Of a stretch of 64,000 bases of DNA, positions 32,511-63,761 are shown piece after piece. This stretch comes from an uncultured Bacteroidota bacterium. GTDB taxonomy: Bacteria; Bacteroidota; Bacteroidia; Chitinophagales; Chitinophagaceae. Position 1 is the stretch's first letter, and every line of letters starts with the position of its first letter. The DNA is taken from assembly GCA_903882805.1 (NCBI GenBank), contig CAIRYK010000087.1, positions 1-64,000 of the forward strand, given 5' to 3'. A program made the position numbers and the translations under genes. Below the pieces are notes generated by a model, which did not search any database, had not been told where the DNA came from, and saw nothing but the letters and a program-made list of their open reading frames with translations.

Positions 32511-33023
32511 TTATGCAGCTTTTTTCGTTTCTATAAAAAAAAGTTCGTCTTGCACCACTTGTAGGCCTATTTCGCGCAGTTTTGGCGCTACTTTTTCTTT
32601 GTGCCTATCGGCAAGTAGCTGGTCTTTTGCTGGCTCTATAGTGGTGCGCACATAATCGGGCAATTTTGTTTTCAGTTGTATCAATATGTTATTCCAGTCG
32701 GCTCCTTTCACAGGTTTCAGTCGGGGCGTACCCAACCTGAAACCTGTCATGCCATGTAGCGCGCCTATAGTGCGCCGCTTGCCAAACAACTGCTCTTTGT
32801 TGTTGAGACAGTAGGCGTGAGCGGTATCGAAAGCAGCATTCTTTATTTGCGACAGGCACAGCATCTCATCTTCATATTTATCCATTACTTCTTTCAAATC
32901 TGTATCGCGACACTGGCACAGCTCGGCTTCGCGGCGCTCGGCAACTGCATAGCGCGCCATCGCCTCCTCAAACTGGCGTTGCGATACATAAATGGTTTGT
33001 TTCATAGGGTTTCTTGTTTTCAT
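32511..33023 (-). CDS. gam: Host-nuclease inhibitor Gam family protein
   Basis: 170 residues. Mu Gam is a Ku-like DNA-end-binding protein that shields phage DNA from exonucleases. Family-like features are the long N-terminal helix (RQFEEAMARYAVAERREAELCQ), KRRTIGALHGMTGFRLGTPRLKP (the FRxGTPxLK signature) and a C-terminal segment KVAPKLREIGLQVVQDELFFIETK. Met7 is an alternative start. It belongs to the minus-strand operon that begins with the MuB-like ATPase. Cytoplasmic. Confidence 0.8.
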   Translation of the reverse strand: MKTRNPMKQTIYVSQRQFEEAMARYAVAERREAELCQCRDTDLKEVMDKYEDEMLCLSQIKNAAFDTAHAYCLNNKEQLFGKRRTIGALHGMTGFRLGTPRLKPVKGADWNNILIQLKTKLPDYVRTTIEPAKDQLLADRHKEKVAPKLREIGLQVVQDELFFIETKKAA

Positions 33024-33162
33024 ACAGACGGGGTTTTTAGGTTTATGGTTTGTAAAGCAGTTGTTATTACCGATTTATTAACGAAAGGCTAATAATATCA
33101 GGGTAAAAAAGCGGCAGGTTATAGGGCTTGGTTAATAATATTTATTTATGCTTATCCTTCTA

Positions 33163-33480
33163 TCAGGCTGCCAGCAGGCTTATTTTTTGCAACATGCTAT
33201 TTACTATCAGGCTGGCGTACTTATCGCGGCTAATATCCATCAGGTTCCATAGTTGGTAAAAAGCCGTTGCCTCAGTTCCGCTCAGGTTGAGCAAGTATTT
33301 TTCCTGATCGCGTTTTAGTAGAGTGGTTAGTTTGGCGCGCAGCTCCAGCAGATATTCGCGCAGCAATAATTGATGGTCGTTGGCAGGTGCAAATTCCTCG
33401 GCCATTTCTTCGCATATTTCTTTGAGGGCCTCTATGCGCTGCCGACTCAGGTTTACTCTTACTCCTCTTTTCCAAGCCAT
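33163..33480 (-). CDS. Hypothetical protein of the Mu-like early operon
   Basis: 105 residues, mostly helical (SRQRIEALKEICEEMAEEF, LREYLLELRAKLTTLLKRD), with no recognised domain. Its ATG overlaps the 3' end of the DnaA-domain gene by 22 bases, so it is translationally coupled. No transmembrane segment or signal peptide. It could be a structural accessory of replication or transposition, but this is only context. Confidence 0.65.
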   Translation of the reverse strand: MAWKRGVRVNLSRQRIEALKEICEEMAEEFAPANDHQLLLREYLLELRAKLTTLLKRDQEKYLLNLSGTEATAFYQLWNLMDISRDKYASLIVNSMLQKISLLAA

Positions 33481-33890
33481 TGGTTGATGCTTTTGAGTAC
33501 TACGTTATATTTTCGGGTAAATTCGGCGTCTTTGGTATAAATCAGGTTATGAGCACGGGATATGCCATTGATCACAGAAGTATGATCTTGCCCGTATATA
33601 GCCGCTATTTGCGTAAGCGTAAACGACGGATAGTACATGCGCAAGAAAAAAGCGCCTATATGCCGCAACTCGGCAATATTGTGCAGGCGGGTTTTGAGCG
33701 TGTAGCACTGCGGATTCATGCCCAGCGCATGGGCTATTACGTTCAGCATTTGCAGCGGCGTTTTTGCCGACTGTCCGGGAGGGTACACCATGAGCGTAAC
33801 ATCCATACCGGTTTCGTTTTTTATGCGTTGCTGCGCACTGCGCACAATAGTGCGGGCTGTATTGATTTGTTGGGCGGGAGCGTAATTCAT
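33459..33890 (-). CDS. DnaA C-terminal (domain IV)-like DNA-binding protein
   Basis: 143 residues. Residues ~75-140 match the Bac_DnaA_C helix-turn-helix that reads DnaA boxes: RHIGAFFLRMYYPSFTLTQIAAIYGQDHTSVINGISRAHNLI, where GxDHTSV is the DnaA signature loop. The AAA+ and oligomerisation domains of DnaA are absent, so it is a stand-alone origin/box reader, not an initiator ATPase. Such genes recur in Bacteroidota Mu-like phages. It may guide replication or regulate promoters with DnaA boxes. Confidence 0.8.
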   Translation of the reverse strand: MNYAPAQQINTARTIVRSAQQRIKNETGMDVTLMVYPPGQSAKTPLQMLNVIAHALGMNPQCYTLKTRLHNIAELRHIGAFFLRMYYPSFTLTQIAAIYGQDHTSVINGISRAHNLIYTKDAEFTRKYNVVLKSINQWLGKEE

Positions 33891-33960
33891 ATAGCTGTTT
33901 TTATTTTTTTGCGAAATAGTTGATAGCGGTTTATAGGTAAGCCTGTTTTATGGCATAGCG

Positions 33961-34812
33961 TCAGGCTGCTATTTTGTAGTGCGCTGCCTGGTTTATGAGG
34001 CGCGTAGCAAGGTGCAGGTTGTTGTTGCATTCGTCTTTTATAGCGGCAATCAAATCTTCGTCGGTTAGGTTGTTTGCGCGGCACACAAGGTCTACATCGT
34101 GCGGGCCCAGACTGCCCAACGATATGAAGCGGCGGCCTATACTTTTGTATATCTCGTCGTAGCCTATGCGTTTTTCGTTTACGCCGTCCAGTATGCGGGT
34201 GCGCAGTCGATCGTCGCCCATTATTACTATACCGGCGCAGCCTGCCACGCTGTTGGCCAGTATCACTGCCTGATGCAGTACGCGGTCTTTCAGTTTGTGC
34301 GCATCGTCAAGTATAAAGAGCGGCTCATCGCGCTCGCGAATAAAATCGGCAAACTGCTGCATCATCTCCGGCACGGTACCCTTGGCTTTCTGTCCGGCGC
34401 TGTGGAGCAGGGCGGCCATAAACGATTTGCGGTTGTAGTATTCGTTGCCCGCTATATAAAAAGTGTCGGCGTTTTCGCGGGTATAGTGGTGGGCGGTGAA
34501 GGTTTTGCCCAGTCCCGTGGCTATGGCTATGCCGTAGGTCATGCGGTAGTGTTGTGCGTCGGCGCATAGTATGCGCAGCAGCAGGTAGGCGCCGGTGTCG
34601 GCGGGTTTCCATTCGGTGTCTACACATCCTACCTGGTGTGCAATATGTATCCACAGTTCGTCGCTCAGCGATTCGCAATTGTTGTTGCGCAATAGCGATA
34701 GCGTAGATACGCTGACGCCATATAGCGAAGCCGCAGCCTGCGCAGGTGTGTCGAAATTGTTTACGTAGCGCAGCAGCGCTGCTCTTGCTTTTGTTTTCTG
34801 CTCGTTTGTCAT
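33961..34812 (-). CDS. MuB-like AAA+ ATPase of a transposable prophage
   Basis: 283 residues. The N-terminal ~65 residues form a lambda-repressor-like HTH (DTPAQAAASLYGVSVSTLSLLRNNN) as in MuB. The ATPase follows, with a degenerate Walker A (GIAIATGLGKTFTA, Ile in place of the usual first Gly/Ala), Walker B LFILDDAHKL and sensor-like GIVIMGDDRLRTRI. MuB delivers target DNA to the MuA transposase. No transposase gene is found next to it. First gene of the early operon, with its promoter at 34942-34974. Confidence 0.8.
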   Translation of the reverse strand: MTNEQKTKARAALLRYVNNFDTPAQAAASLYGVSVSTLSLLRNNNCESLSDELWIHIAHQVGCVDTEWKPADTGAYLLLRILCADAQHYRMTYGIAIATGLGKTFTAHHYTRENADTFYIAGNEYYNRKSFMAALLHSAGQKAKGTVPEMMQQFADFIRERDEPLFILDDAHKLKDRVLHQAVILANSVAGCAGIVIMGDDRLRTRILDGVNEKRIGYDEIYKSIGRRFISLGSLGPHDVDLVCRANNLTDEDLIAAIKDECNNNLHLATRLINQAAHYKIAA

Positions 34813-58512: not shown

Positions 58513-60381
58513 TCATCTGCCCATATATACCATCAGTATTTGCACATCGCTTGGGTTTACTCCGCTTATGCGGCTTGCCTGCCCCAATGTACGCGGTTTT
58601 ATCTTTGCCAGCTTCTGGCGCGCTTCGTTCGATATGGCCGACAGTTTATCGTAGTTAAAACGCTCCGGAATCATCAAATCTTCCAAAGAAGACATTTTTT
58701 GCACCAATTCGCGCTCTTTTTCGATATAAACGTCGTATTTCACCTGTATTTCCACTTGCTCGAGGGTTAGTGCGTCTATATCGCCAACAGCAGCCTTTAA
58801 ATCGGGTATTGCTTCCATCATTTCTTTGATGCCTATGCCCGGGCGAAGCAATAATTTTATGGCTCTTATCCTTTCGGTGAGCTGTGCTGAGTTGTTATCT
58901 TCCAGTATCTGGCGCGCCATTTCTTTATCTACCGAGAATTCGGCCAGCGTGCTTTTCACTTTGGCTACTCTCGCTTGCTTTTCATTGATCAGCTGCAAGC
59001 GTTCATCCGATGCCAGTCCTATGCTGTGGCCGAGCGGCGTTAGGCGCATATCTGCATTGTCTTGCCTAAGCAGTGTGCGGTATTCGGCTCTGCTGGTAAA
59101 CATCCGGTAGGGCTCATCGGTTCCTTTGTTTATCAGGTCGTCTATCAGCACGCCTATATAGGCATCGCTGCGTTTCAGCACTACAGGTTCCTGCTCTTTT
59201 GCCAACCTTGCAGCATTGATACCCGCCATTAGTCCCTGACATGCTGCTTCTTCATAGCCTGTAGTACCATTTATCTGCCCAGCAAAGAACAAATTGTTGA
59301 TCAATTTCGTCTCGAGGGTGAATTTTAGCTGTGTTGGTGGGAAATAATCGTATTCAATAGCATATCCGGGGCGGAAGAACTTTACATTCTCGAATCCCGG
59401 CACCATTTTCAGGGCATTGTATTGCACATCTTCGGGCAGCGAAGTGCTAAAGCCGTTTACGTATATCTCTACAGTGTTCCATCCTTCGGGCTCTACAAAC
59501 AACTGATGCCGGTCTCTGTCGGCAAAACGGCTTATTTTATCCTCAATACTGGGGCAATAGCGCGGACCGCTGCCTTTTATACGTCCCTGATACATGGGTG
59601 AGTGTTCAAAACCAGTTTTTAGTATCTCATGTACCTCCGGACTTGTGTAAGTTATCCAGCAGCAGCGTTGTTGTTTAGGTTTTATGCGTTCTATAGGCAG
59701 GTAAGAAAAGCCTACTACCTCTTCATCGCCATCTTGCACCTCCATTTTGGTATAGTCGAGGCTACGACCATCTACTCTCGGTGGGGTGCCTGTTTTCAGT
59801 CGGGCTGTTTCAAAACCCAGTTCCACCAGTTGTTCGGTAATACCAGTTGCGCCTTTCTCCCCTATTCTACCGCCGCCAAATTGCTTTTCGCCTATGTGTA
59901 TTACGCCATTCAAGAAGGTACCGTTGGTAAGCACTACGCATTTACCCATTATTTCCTGTCCCATGCCGGTTACTACGCCCTTAATTGTTCCACGTGAAAC
60001 AATTAGTCCCTTCACCATATCCTGCCAGAAATCTACATTAGGTGTATTTTCCAGCATTTCGCGCCATGTAGCAGCAAACAGCATTCTATCGTTCTGCGAT
60101 CTTGGGCTCCACATACCGGGGCCCTTTGATTTATTGAGCATCCGGAATTGAATCATACTCTTATCGCTCACAATACCACTATAACCGCCCAATGCGTCTA
60201 TCTCGCGTACTATCTGGCCTTTGGCAATACCGCCCATAGCTGGGTTACAGCTCATTTGGGCTATGGTCTGCATGTTCATGGTTATCAGCAATACCTTCGA
60301 CCCCATATTGGCGGCAGCAGCAGCAGCTTCACAACCGGCATGACCTGCGCCAACCACAATTACATCGTATTCAGGAAACAT
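58513..60381 (-). CDS. mnmG: tRNA U34 5-carboxymethylaminomethyl modification enzyme MnmG
   Basis: 622 residues, normal for the family. FAD-binding VVGAGHAGCEAAAAAANMGSKVLLI near the start. Conserved CNPAMGGIAKGQIVREIDALGG, GTFLNGVIHIG, LKTGTPPRVDGRSLDY, GPRYCPSIEDKI, ATGYEEAACQGL-like GTTGYEEAACQGLMAGINAA and a helical C-terminal MnmE-binding domain. Forms the heterotetramer with MnmE (not here) to modify wobble uridine of tRNAs. Carries a parS-like site inside its coding sequence (59986-60001). The promoter is at 60387-60394. Confidence 0.96.
   Translation of the reverse strand: MFPEYDVIVVGAGHAGCEAAAAAANMGSKVLLITMNMQTIAQMSCNPAMGGIAKGQIVREIDALGGYSGIVSDKSMIQFRMLNKSKGPGMWSPRSQNDRMLFAATWREMLENTPNVDFWQDMVKGLIVSRGTIKGVVTGMGQEIMGKCVVLTNGTFLNGVIHIGEKQFGGGRIGEKGATGITEQLVELGFETARLKTGTPPRVDGRSLDYTKMEVQDGDEEVVGFSYLPIERIKPKQQRCCWITYTSPEVHEILKTGFEHSPMYQGRIKGSGPRYCPSIEDKISRFADRDRHQLFVEPEGWNTVEIYVNGFSTSLPEDVQYNALKMVPGFENVKFFRPGYAIEYDYFPPTQLKFTLETKLINNLFFAGQINGTTGYEEAACQGLMAGINAARLAKEQEPVVLKRSDAYIGVLIDDLINKGTDEPYRMFTSRAEYRTLLRQDNADMRLTPLGHSIGLASDERLQLINEKQARVAKVKSTLAEFSVDKEMARQILEDNNSAQLTERIRAIKLLLRPGIGIKEMMEAIPDLKAAVGDIDALTLEQVEIQVKYDVYIEKERELVQKMSSLEDLMIPERFNYDKLSAISNEARQKLAKIKPRTLGQASRISGVNPSDVQILMVYMGR
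59986..60001. promoter_or_regulatory. parS-like ParB site inside mnmG
   Basis: TGTTCCACGTGAAACA fits the widely conserved parS form TGTTNCACGTGAAACA at all 16 positions. It lies in the coding sequence of mnmG (about codons 127-132) and is the nearest of two such sites. Confidence 0.75.
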
Positions 60382-60386
60382 AGCGC

Positions 60387-60394
60387 CAAAGATA
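60387..60394 (-). promoter_or_regulatory. -7 promoter element of mnmG (near-leaderless)
   Basis: The minus strand reads TATCTTTG, only five bases before the ATG at 60381. Little or no 5' leader is expected. Confidence 0.55.
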
Positions 60395-60483
60395 CGAACG
60401 CAACCTTATATAAACAGCGCCACGCCAAACATAATGACTATATAAAACTGCTATCCGTATATAGATACTCCGTTTGAAGTACA

Positions 60484-60515
60484 AAATGCGTTGTTCCACG
60501 TGGAACAACGCATTT
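60484..60515. promoter_or_regulatory. Perfect 32-bp palindrome containing a second parS-like site
   Basis: AAATGCGTTGTTCCAC (60484-60499) is exactly mirrored in 60500-60515. The centre, TGTTCCACGTGGAACA, matches parS in 15 of 16 positions and is fully symmetric. It lies in the divergent region between mnmG and the gene starting at 60564. Confidence 0.8.
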
Positions 60516-60563: not shown

Positions 60564-61148
60564 ATGTTACCTCTTCGCTCAACATACCGATACCTACTAC
60601 CGGCAATGCTGGCAGGAAGCTTTGTAGCGCAAGGACAGATACTGCAACAAGACAAACAAACTAAGCGAGAACGAGGTTTAACCGTAGGTATAAACCAAGG
60701 TACAGAGTATAATAGCAGAGCAAGAAAACTAAACGGACAGTACGGCATATCGCTAACAAAAGAACTAAGCGCAAAATGGAAAGCCGCAGTAGGTGTTAAC
60801 TATAATGCACCTTCTACACTTACAACAGGCAATATATACACTATTACTGCGCCAGCTACCCTCCAGTATTACCTGCTGCCTAAAGAATGTAAGGTAAAAG
60901 CCTTTGTGGGCGCCGGAGTGCAATACACAATGCCAGTTAATACGCCACAGACAACACCCACCAACAAGGAATATATAGCTAAGTATAGCCCCAACGATGG
61001 AAATAACTACATAAGCGTAGTATACACACAGGGTATAATAATAGAGGTAAACACTAAAATACAAATTACACAGTCCTTTCACTTCATAGATGCCGGACAA
61101 GAAAAGCGAATTGGCCTCAATCTGGGTATAGGTTTCAAAATACCGTAG
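60564..61148 (+). CDS. Outer membrane beta-barrel-like protein
   Basis: 194 residues. A weakly hydrophobic leader (RYLLPAMLAGSFVAQGQ) acts as signal peptide. Mature part has repeated amphipathic strands: YGISLTKELSAKWKAAVGVNYN, ATLQYYLLPKECKVKAFVGAGVQYTMP and KRIGLNLGIGFKIP at the C-terminus. Resembles small OmpA/OmpW-like barrels used in Bacteroidota, function unknown. No neighbours in the same direction. Confidence 0.7.
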   Translation: MLPLRSTYRYLLPAMLAGSFVAQGQILQQDKQTKRERGLTVGINQGTEYNSRARKLNGQYGISLTKELSAKWKAAVGVNYNAPSTLTTGNIYTITAPATLQYYLLPKECKVKAFVGAGVQYTMPVNTPQTTPTNKEYIAKYSPNDGNNYISVVYTQGIIIEVNTKIQITQSFHFIDAGQEKRIGLNLGIGFKIP

Positions 61149-61736: not shown

Positions 61737-63761
61737 TTACTTAATAACCGCGAACTTGTGCGAAGTAGCTATACCATCAGCAGTGATGATGAGGTAGTAG
61801 TTGCCTGGTGCAAGTTTCTTTGTAGACATTCTGAATTCTTCTGTCTGAACGTTGTTATGAACTTCTTTAGTTACAAAACGGCCAAGACCGTCGATGATAG
61901 CGTAAGAAATTTCTTTTACGTTCTTAGAAAGGTTAACAGAAAGGTTCATGTAGTCGGTAGCAGGGTTTGGATAAACCTTGATATCCTGAAGAGACTGGTT
62001 AAGTTCTTTTACATGAATGTCGATTGGAGGAGTTGTAGTAGTATCTGGGTGATTATTAACAATCAAAGCAACAGAGGGAACAAGACCCTGAACGCCGCTA
62101 TAGTTGAAAGAATCTACAGAACGGATAAACGCAGCCTGAGAGAAAGGAATCAGACCGAAGTTAGCGGCTGGAGAACCTGTCATTGGGGTACCGCCAGTGC
62201 TATAACCGCCAGCCCACATCATGCTTGAATATTCGAAGAAGTTTGAAGTAACAGCACGGCCAAACATACGTGGGTATGGGCTAGCGCCGCCATCGCAATA
62301 CAGCAGGAAGTTAGCAGGAACTTCAGCAGCTATGTAGTAATAAGCGTTTGAATCGAGGAATATAGGACGACCTGGGATTGAAGTAGTAGGATCGCCCCAT
62401 GGTGCTGTGAATATAACGCCTGAAGTATCTGTAGTACCGTTGAAAGCTTTGTTAGCCATAGAAACCAAGGTCAACTCGCCATTCTGAACAATGCTATCCA
62501 AAGGTTGACCAGCAGCGCCGTCTACCCATTTGAAAGCATACAGGTTCATATTGCTTGCACCCAATGGGCCTAAAGTCTGGCTGTAGATAGAGAACTGTAC
62601 TTTGCTCAAGGCAGTACCGCCTCTTGCAACGAAGTACATAGGACCCCAACATACGTCGGTAGTAGCAAATGAAGATGGACCGTGAGCTGCAGTAGCTATA
62701 GGCGCCTGAGCTGCGAAATCGTAACGGCCTTTTGAGTAAACGCTATCGCTTGCATAGAAAGAGATAGTAGTTGAGTTATCCAGTGGATACTGATCGGTAG
62801 TATCAGACATGATGTTGTACTGCAGATCGTAACGACCAGCGCCAGTTGGAGCAAGGTTGTACTCAGCTGGAGAATACAGTGCATAAATTGAGTCTGGAGC
62901 AACATTTGCAGTACCAGTGAAAGTAGTGAGGTTGACGCTGGTATCTCTGCGAACCACGGTAGCCGAACCGCCTGTAGGGGTAAAGCTAAGTGAAGTAGCC
63001 ACTTTTACGTTTTTAGCGTCGCTTGAACCGTAGTTAGCTACGAAAGCGCCGTTAAGACCCTTATATGCCATTGGCGTAGTACCGGTGTTCAACTGATTGT
63101 AAGGAACAGCATAGTTTGCCCATGCAGCAGCGCCGCCCGGAACGAAACCAAGGTCATTACTATTGTTGATACCCCATGGAGTGATAGTCATTTTTACAGA
63201 ACCGGCTGGAAGCGTGTGGTACTGAGCCGATAAAGCTATACCATCGAGGTTGCCGATCATGAATACAGGGATAGTAACAGAAGTACCTGAAGTACCGCCA
63301 GCCATGCCTATTGGGCCTGCGCCGGGATATTCGTTGATGATAACAACAGCAACGGCGCCAGCGGTTTGTGCCTGAAGGGCTTTATAACCAAATTCGCAAG
63401 GCGTTGTAATAGGTCCTCTCCAAATAACGGCAATCTTACCGGTCATGTCTGTAGTAAAAGGTGCGCAACCGAAAGAATCGGGACCGCCCATAATTACAGG
63501 AACATCGATAAGCGGCGTAGTTACAGGCCCGCCCCAAGGAGTAGTACCTGACCATGCAGCTGTAAATTCTTTGTTACCGGCAATTGCAGAGGGAGCAGAT
63601 ACCTGAAAACGTAATCCAACATAGTCTTTGTACCAGTTTGAATCCGGAGTGTAGGTATTTGGACCAAACGCTAAAGGGTGAATCTGGGCATTACTCACAT
63701 TTGCAACGCCTATCAGGGCAGATGCAAGGAGTAACTTTTTAAGAGAGTTGAGATGCTTCAT
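61737..63761 (-). CDS. T9SS-secreted protein with a PA domain
   Basis: 674 residues with signal peptide MKHLNSLKKLLLASALIGVANVSNAQ. A protease-associated (PA) insert-type domain (~75-200) reads GKIAVIWRGPITTPCEFGYKALQAQTAGAVAVVIINEYP and VTIPVFMIGNLDGIAL. No protease catalytic domain is visible. The middle ~350 residues are beta-rich adhesin-like modules. It ends in a T9SS type A sorting domain (DIKVYPNPATDYMNLSVNL ... KLAPGNYYLIITADG). Extracellular, probably binding or scaffold function. Single-gene unit. Confidence 0.85.
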   Translation of the reverse strand: MKHLNSLKKLLLASALIGVANVSNAQIHPLAFGPNTYTPDSNWYKDYVGLRFQVSAPSAIAGNKEFTAAWSGTTPWGGPVTTPLIDVPVIMGGPDSFGCAPFTTDMTGKIAVIWRGPITTPCEFGYKALQAQTAGAVAVVIINEYPGAGPIGMAGGTSGTSVTIPVFMIGNLDGIALSAQYHTLPAGSVKMTITPWGINNSNDLGFVPGGAAAWANYAVPYNQLNTGTTPMAYKGLNGAFVANYGSSDAKNVKVATSLSFTPTGGSATVVRRDTSVNLTTFTGTANVAPDSIYALYSPAEYNLAPTGAGRYDLQYNIMSDTTDQYPLDNSTTISFYASDSVYSKGRYDFAAQAPIATAAHGPSSFATTDVCWGPMYFVARGGTALSKVQFSIYSQTLGPLGASNMNLYAFKWVDGAAGQPLDSIVQNGELTLVSMANKAFNGTTDTSGVIFTAPWGDPTTSIPGRPIFLDSNAYYYIAAEVPANFLLYCDGGASPYPRMFGRAVTSNFFEYSSMMWAGGYSTGGTPMTGSPAANFGLIPFSQAAFIRSVDSFNYSGVQGLVPSVALIVNNHPDTTTTPPIDIHVKELNQSLQDIKVYPNPATDYMNLSVNLSKNVKEISYAIIDGLGRFVTKEVHNNVQTEEFRMSTKKLAPGNYYLIITADGIATSHKFAVIK

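Follow-up and report, generated by a model that had tools for sequence, protein, structure and literature searches.

The 64,000-nucleotide stretch of DNA analysed here (the window), from an uncultured Bacteroidota bacterium of the Chitinophagaceae (contig CAIRYK010000087.1), carries mnmG (gidA) near its end, together with a divergent gene for a small OmpW-like protein and two copies of a 16-bp palindrome about 0.5 kb apart (Table 1). The mnmG product matches solved MnmG/GidA structures with a best E-value of 4e-204. One copy lies inside the gene, covering codons 128-132 and the final base of codon 127, its codons GTT TCA CGT GGA ACA specifying the peptide VSRGT. The other occupies the interval between mnmG and the divergent gene, 110 bp ahead of the mnmG start codon. 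A gene for a PA-domain protein separates this few-membered cluster from the likely replication origin past the window end. Both copies match, with no mismatch, the palindrome TGTTYCACGTGRAACA that marks chromosomal parS, bearing out a first-pass annotation of this DNA that had assigned the in-gene copy to parS and placed a second, symmetric copy in the middle of a perfect palindrome of 32 bp; the consensus it quoted was asymmetric, however, whereas that of parS is symmetric. The excerpted text of PMC10197239 gives the consensus as TGTTTCACGTGAAACA. Nothing else in the window matches with up to two mismatches, a threshold at which 0.33 matches are expected by chance and two were reached in 5 of 100 shuffles; with no mismatch in either copy, the earlier view that the pair is unlikely to be accidental stands.

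Table 1. Genes and palindromic sites at the mnmG locus, in positions of the window
Feature	Position	Strand	Details
mnmG (gidA), tRNA uridine-5-carboxymethylaminomethyl modification enzyme, 622 aa	58513..60381	-	Pfam GIDA, 543 bits
parS site 1	59986..60001	.	TGTTCCACGTGAAACA, exact consensus; within mnmG
32-bp perfect palindrome	60484..60515	.	parS site 2 at its centre; outer arms 8 bp
parS site 2	60492..60507	.	TGTTCCACGTGGAACA, exact consensus, fully symmetric
Divergent gene, small OmpW-like protein	60564..61148	+	PF03922, 23.6 bits, just under the cut-off of 24
PA-domain protein with Por secretion sorting tail	61737..63761	-	PF02225 and PF18962

The whole-genome motif search proposed in the first-pass annotation returned both sites at mnmG and no scattered matches: across the draft genome (4,941,456 bases, 95 contigs) no further parS match was found with up to one mismatch, at which a reversed control pattern gave two matches, neither of them exact. 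The par genes, which had been described as absent, are indeed missing from the mnmG contig but are present in the genome, where a parA-parB pair of chromosomal type lies on contig C72, with a full-length SMC gene on C9 (1027 bits) and dnaA on C94. A second ParB-family gene, encoding 259 residues with ParB_N and a weaker HTH match, is found on C52 (locus L004). In many bacteria parAB and dnaA lie near the parS/origin locus, but in the relatives studied here they are far off; nearby parAB is a common, not a defining, trait of chromosomal parS, and here parB is on another contig. The C72 ParB has Arg at position 173 and Gly at 201, residues placed by their spacing to the conserved Asn178 and Arg204. 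According to the excerpts of PMC7383237, this Arg and Gly contact parS and are conserved in ParB, and Noc has Gln and Arg instead. The Noc-type pair was not found in the chromosomal ParB, which is predicted from its Arg and Gly to be of the parS-reading type. Given the SMC gene, condensin loading at the sites is plausible.

The association of the site with mnmG extends well beyond this genome. Searched by motif, the exact site was found in 91 of 195 genomes of the family and 74 of 119 of the class, and was missing from 104 and 45, respectively. Loci around the matches were fetched up to a cap and so cover part of them (30 of the 91 matching family genomes, and 20 of 33 in the genus, where up to one mismatch was allowed). 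Among these, mnmG lay within 1.5 kb of the site in 29 of the 30 loci from the family, in 19 of the 20 from the genus and, counting new loci only, in 24 of 28 further ones from the class. The one exception in the genus arose from a match with one mismatch that does not resemble parS, and two of the four exceptions in the class are short loci located where contigs end. With one mismatch allowed, 33 of 35 genus genomes have a match, some of them by chance; the two genomes that lack a match are also the only two where mnmG was not found, and in G203 the single match is not parS-like and mnmG is a fragment lacking its first part.

Loci fetched by mnmG alone give a consistent picture. An exact site is present in 40 of 80 such Bacteroidota loci, while none of 30 shuffled palindromes matched anywhere in these 742 kb. 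Counted by locus, one locus being allowed in more than one class, exact sites lie within 400 bp upstream of mnmG in 35, inside it in five, just downstream in eight and elsewhere in six. A site with one or two mismatches occurs in 22 of the other 40 loci, a count that stands without a shuffle control, and in 19 of these it is within 150 bp upstream; the fetched mnmG locus has no site even at two mismatches in 18 of the 80. Exact sites occur in 19 of 29 named genomes chosen from among the 80; in 18 of the 19 they all fall inside the mnmG locus (35 of 37 sites), and the remaining genome has both its sites away from mnmG. The linkage of parS to mnmG is class-wide, and the genomes without an exact site, like the 18 loci without even a two-mismatch site, show that the rule has exceptions. 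Relatives of mnmG also occur on 57 plasmid records, which were not used as evidence.

Position relative to the origin was assessed in four chromosomes of relatives (G114, G018, G116 and G227; G227 is LGM1, a genome lacking any exact parS), each sampled as 20 stretches of 20 kb spaced evenly from the mnmG locus, with 79 of the 80 stretches in the sample. A two-breakpoint fit placed the GC skew switch corresponding to the origin at the mnmG locus in all four, at 5% resolution; a cruder split into halves put G018 one step off. The positive arc takes up 10, 9 and 10 of the 20 stretches in G114, G018 and G227, and four in G116, the shortest that the fit allowed, indicating that the terminus side is displaced or the skew irregular in that chromosome. 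At fine scale the cumulative skew minimum lies 10 kb from the locus in G114, 14 kb in G018 and 47 kb (weak) in G227. The skew of the window's own contig is flat, with no clear minimum, and like that of the window itself it is uninformative; proximity to the origin is read from the relatives and from a DnaA-box gap 4.4 kb away in the contig. In four single-contig relatives, taken as circular, dnaA lies 1.76 Mb (G116), 1.94 Mb (G018), 0.79 Mb (G106) and 0.75 Mb (G114) from parS, and parB 1.30, 1.84, 1.72 and 1.81 Mb away in the same order. Because dnaA is so far from the skew switch, it is the centromere and not dnaA that marks the switch in these relatives, G106 being outside the skew sample. 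These skew switches, the count of two sites genome-wide and the presence of parA-parB and SMC genes give good support to the earlier proposal of an origin-proximal partition locus.

The most likely candidate for oriC, as read from sequence features, is a 0.9-kb AT-rich gap flanked by nadA and a SurA-like gene (contig positions 64,860-65,766), just past the window end and about 4.4 kb from the upstream parS. Its GC content of 0.329, against 0.465 for the contig, is the lowest of 1,661 intervals of the same size and the only one that low, and it holds four of the contig's seven strict DnaA boxes; no strict box was found within the window. The start of nadA is some 4.1-4.5 kb upstream of mnmG in all eight congeners, and the 900 bp beyond nadA, 13% of the bases, contain 21 of their 27 relaxed DnaA boxes; this span was chosen after the gap in the window's contig had been seen. 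The congener boxes are uneven (4, 3, 1, 4, 1, 3, 2 and 3 relaxed boxes in the 900 bp), two of the eight having a single relaxed box and three having a strict box there. G018 has five strict boxes on the opposite side of mnmG, at a distance of 4.0-4.2 kb from parS, and no DnaA-box cluster was found near the mnmG locus of LGM1. Boxes and AT content single out the gap in its own contig, and the skew minimum is 10-14 kb off in two relatives.

Elsewhere in the window a run of minus-strand ORFs at 32511-34812 has, by eye, a MuB-like ATPase look and, at 33489-33782, a weak match resembling the DnaA C-terminus (E 5e-5); the run may represent a Mu-like transposable phage. The contigs that carry mnmG in G097 and G171 also show weak DnaA-like matches.

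The in-gene site is held as DNA, and it appears to dictate five amino acids of MnmG. The codon test was confined to 30 genus loci in which mnmG was found by protein family (L273-L302, the window's own included), because the loci L005-L034 and L115-L134 had been fetched by motif; the 30 come from 33 genus mnmG matches, two of the three left out being partial. All 30 have the same 15 bases at codons 128-132, the full 16-mer is kept in 29 (L293 has a C before the 15 bases), and 28 also have an exact upstream site. Of 219 columns in which the amino acid is constant and has four or more synonymous codons, five show no codon variation, and they coincide exactly with codons 128-132, whereas each of the other 214 uses at least two. 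In a wider set of 33 loci, motif-fetched loci included, 30 share the 15 bases and two of 159 columns are single-codon, both within the site. The alternative that the match is a coincidence of codon choice, VSRGT being retained for the sake of the enzyme, would account for the constancy of the peptide in the genus (S, R, G and T at 129-132 in 30 of 30), but it is extremely improbable. It leaves unexplained five fixed neighbouring codons, a set with a probability of 3.7e-4 under the gene's own codon usage, and it is at odds with the behaviour of these positions in 75 loci outside the clade, where 129-132 vary, mostly as K/E, N/D, G/N and R/K (entropy ranks 162, 128, 120 and 94 of 622), and where the six commonest residues at 130 cover 73 of the 75 loci and do not include R. 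VSRGT thus replaces a stretch that is variable outside the clade. Moreover, of the three remaining loci of the wider set, L012 (VPRGT) and L043 (VSRET) alter the peptide yet keep a valid parS, LGM1 (VSRET) having one mismatch, and in none of the 30 genus loci is VSRGT encoded with synonymous changes. The first-pass annotation had proposed DNA-level selection on this copy and had named synonymous loss of the motif in close relatives as a check; at the five codons no such loss was found among the 30, and the confinement of single-codon columns to the site is what the proposal predicts. In an MnmG tree built without the site columns, by one quick method, the in-gene peptide occurs in 43 of 87 rows and needs two changes, these being a 41-row clade with 99% SH-aLRT support and the L012-L043 pair, whose place is unsure, so that a single origin of the peptide is possible.

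The upstream copy could also be viewed as an operator or RNA hairpin controlling the divergent mnmG and OmpW-like genes, with its likeness to parS secondary. The palindrome does sit between divergent genes, its RNA fold is strong (-23.6 kcal/mol, z -5.3), as with any perfect palindrome, and perfect arms of at least 6 bp beyond the core are seen in 7 of 127 contexts outside mnmG, the window's own included, against a rough estimate, made without a control, of less than one. However, the part that is conserved is the core without the arms. Arms longer than 3 bp occur at one of 29 upstream sites in the genus, that of the window itself, and 8-bp arms in no other genus locus examined, so the conserved extended arms that would identify an operator were not found at these sites, and selection holds the 16-bp core and not the 32-bp palindrome. 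Nor can the in-gene twin serve as such an operator, and promoter-like sites at the palindrome number none where 0.9 would be expected. We regard an operator as very unlikely, the earlier suggestion of a regulator site for the divergent genes is not sustained, and a terminator reading of this palindrome is weakened by the same lack of conserved arms. An origin of the sites in a mobile element or plasmid partition system is harder still to credit: the second ParB-family gene on C52 does have neighbours of mobile-element look by eye (one exonuclease-like, among others), but the sites occupy a housekeeping gene and its conserved neighbourhood, with nadA in place in eight of eight congeners, and they recur at mnmG across the class. 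Some parS cores in other loci, namely L038 (-418), L018 (-122), L005 (-62) and L019, are embedded in longer hairpins with T-rich stretches after them, which gives the appearance of a site that also acts as a transcription terminator.

A chromosomal centromere at the replication origin, of a kind already known, is the most likely identity of the two sites. This centromere reading draws on their uniqueness in the genome, the mnmG linkage, the DNA-level conservation, the skew of relatives, the DnaA-box cluster and the ParA, ParB and SMC genes, and we consider it highly probable as a whole, that is with the pair as the chromosomal parS, the in-gene copy as a true site and oriC in the nearby gap. 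For ParB binding, ParA movement, SMC loading, segregation and origin firing we infer the following course. The chromosomal ParB would clamp onto both sites and spread over mnmG and neighbouring genes, ParA would move the ParB-bound region, and ParB would probably load SMC, with the result that sister origins would be pulled apart soon after firing. Replication would fire at the AT-rich, DnaA-box-rich gap. Selection for ParB binding would have fixed the 15 bases of mnmG, and the peptide VSRGT would follow from these. A broader proposal, which we favour with rather less assurance, is that the Bacteroidia centromere is anchored at mnmG as a remnant of an ancestral origin neighbourhood that dnaA and parAB have left, and that in one Chitinophagales clade the centromere has entered the gene, where it writes five residues of an unrelated enzyme, selection for segregation overriding choice at the protein level.

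The parS sites of chromosomal ParABS systems are reportedly described by Livny et al. in 2007. In the Firmicutes origin region, gidA-noc-soj-spo0J, parS is accompanied by adjacent parAB. The locus described here shares with that region an mnmG/gidA gene beside the origin and parS, but parAB, adjacent there, is far off in the relatives measured. With chromosomal ParABS systems such as those of Bacillus subtilis, Caulobacter and Myxococcus (excerpts of PMC3899335 and PMC10197239) it has in common the 16-bp palindrome, clustering, proximity to the origin and a genome encoding ParB and ParA of chromosomal type. It differs in that parB and dnaA are 0.75-1.9 Mb off in four single-contig relatives, and in that mnmG contains one of the sites, at a codon position that is fixed in several genera. 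The parS clusters of Bacteroides caecimuris and Muribaculum intestinale offer a further comparison. PMC10197239, in the parts excerpted, places ori from parS clusters and GC skew in a set of gut bacteria, two Bacteroidetes among them, and finds that it does not always coincide with dnaA; those parts mention neither mnmG, an in-gene site nor an effect on a protein. Noc and its NBS sites are related in protein family and palindrome, but the ParB here has Arg and Gly where Noc has Gln and Arg, and the sites are of parS type (PMC7383237, in excerpt). Neither class-wide mnmG anchoring nor the five-codon capture was found in a literature search of open-licence papers. If the centromere reading is correct, the sequence rule of looking at mnmG would locate the centromere in a phylum where dnaA misleads, and the origin too in the relatives sampled. 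The in-gene copy would provide a clean natural case of a DNA-binding site within a gene fixing both synonymous sites and protein residues, and the question of why ParB sites stay with mnmG while parAB and dnaA do not becomes testable.

Variant arrangements of parS around mnmG were also seen. In six loci (L088, L089, L099, L112, L113 and L114) a site lies shortly after the mnmG stop codon (roughly +1870 to +1980) and is paired with an upstream one, so that mnmG is flanked; the class loci L333 and L338-L341 likewise have parS just past the stop codon. In L012 and L043, a separate pair of lineages, mnmG contains a second parS close to its 3' end (+1595). The nearest named complete genome, LGM1 (Chitinophagaceae bacterium, CP075895.1, L037), with no exact parS, has an in-gene copy with one mismatch (VSRET) and two copies with two mismatches about 0.85 kb upstream, possibly through decay or a shifted ParB preference. 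In genome G288 parS has been multiplied in a 99-bp tandem repeat (L327, 1501-2122), giving seven exact copies in the locus and 12 in the genome. The repeat begins in the last codons of an ORF that is YbeY-like by eye and whose tail reads VPRGT.
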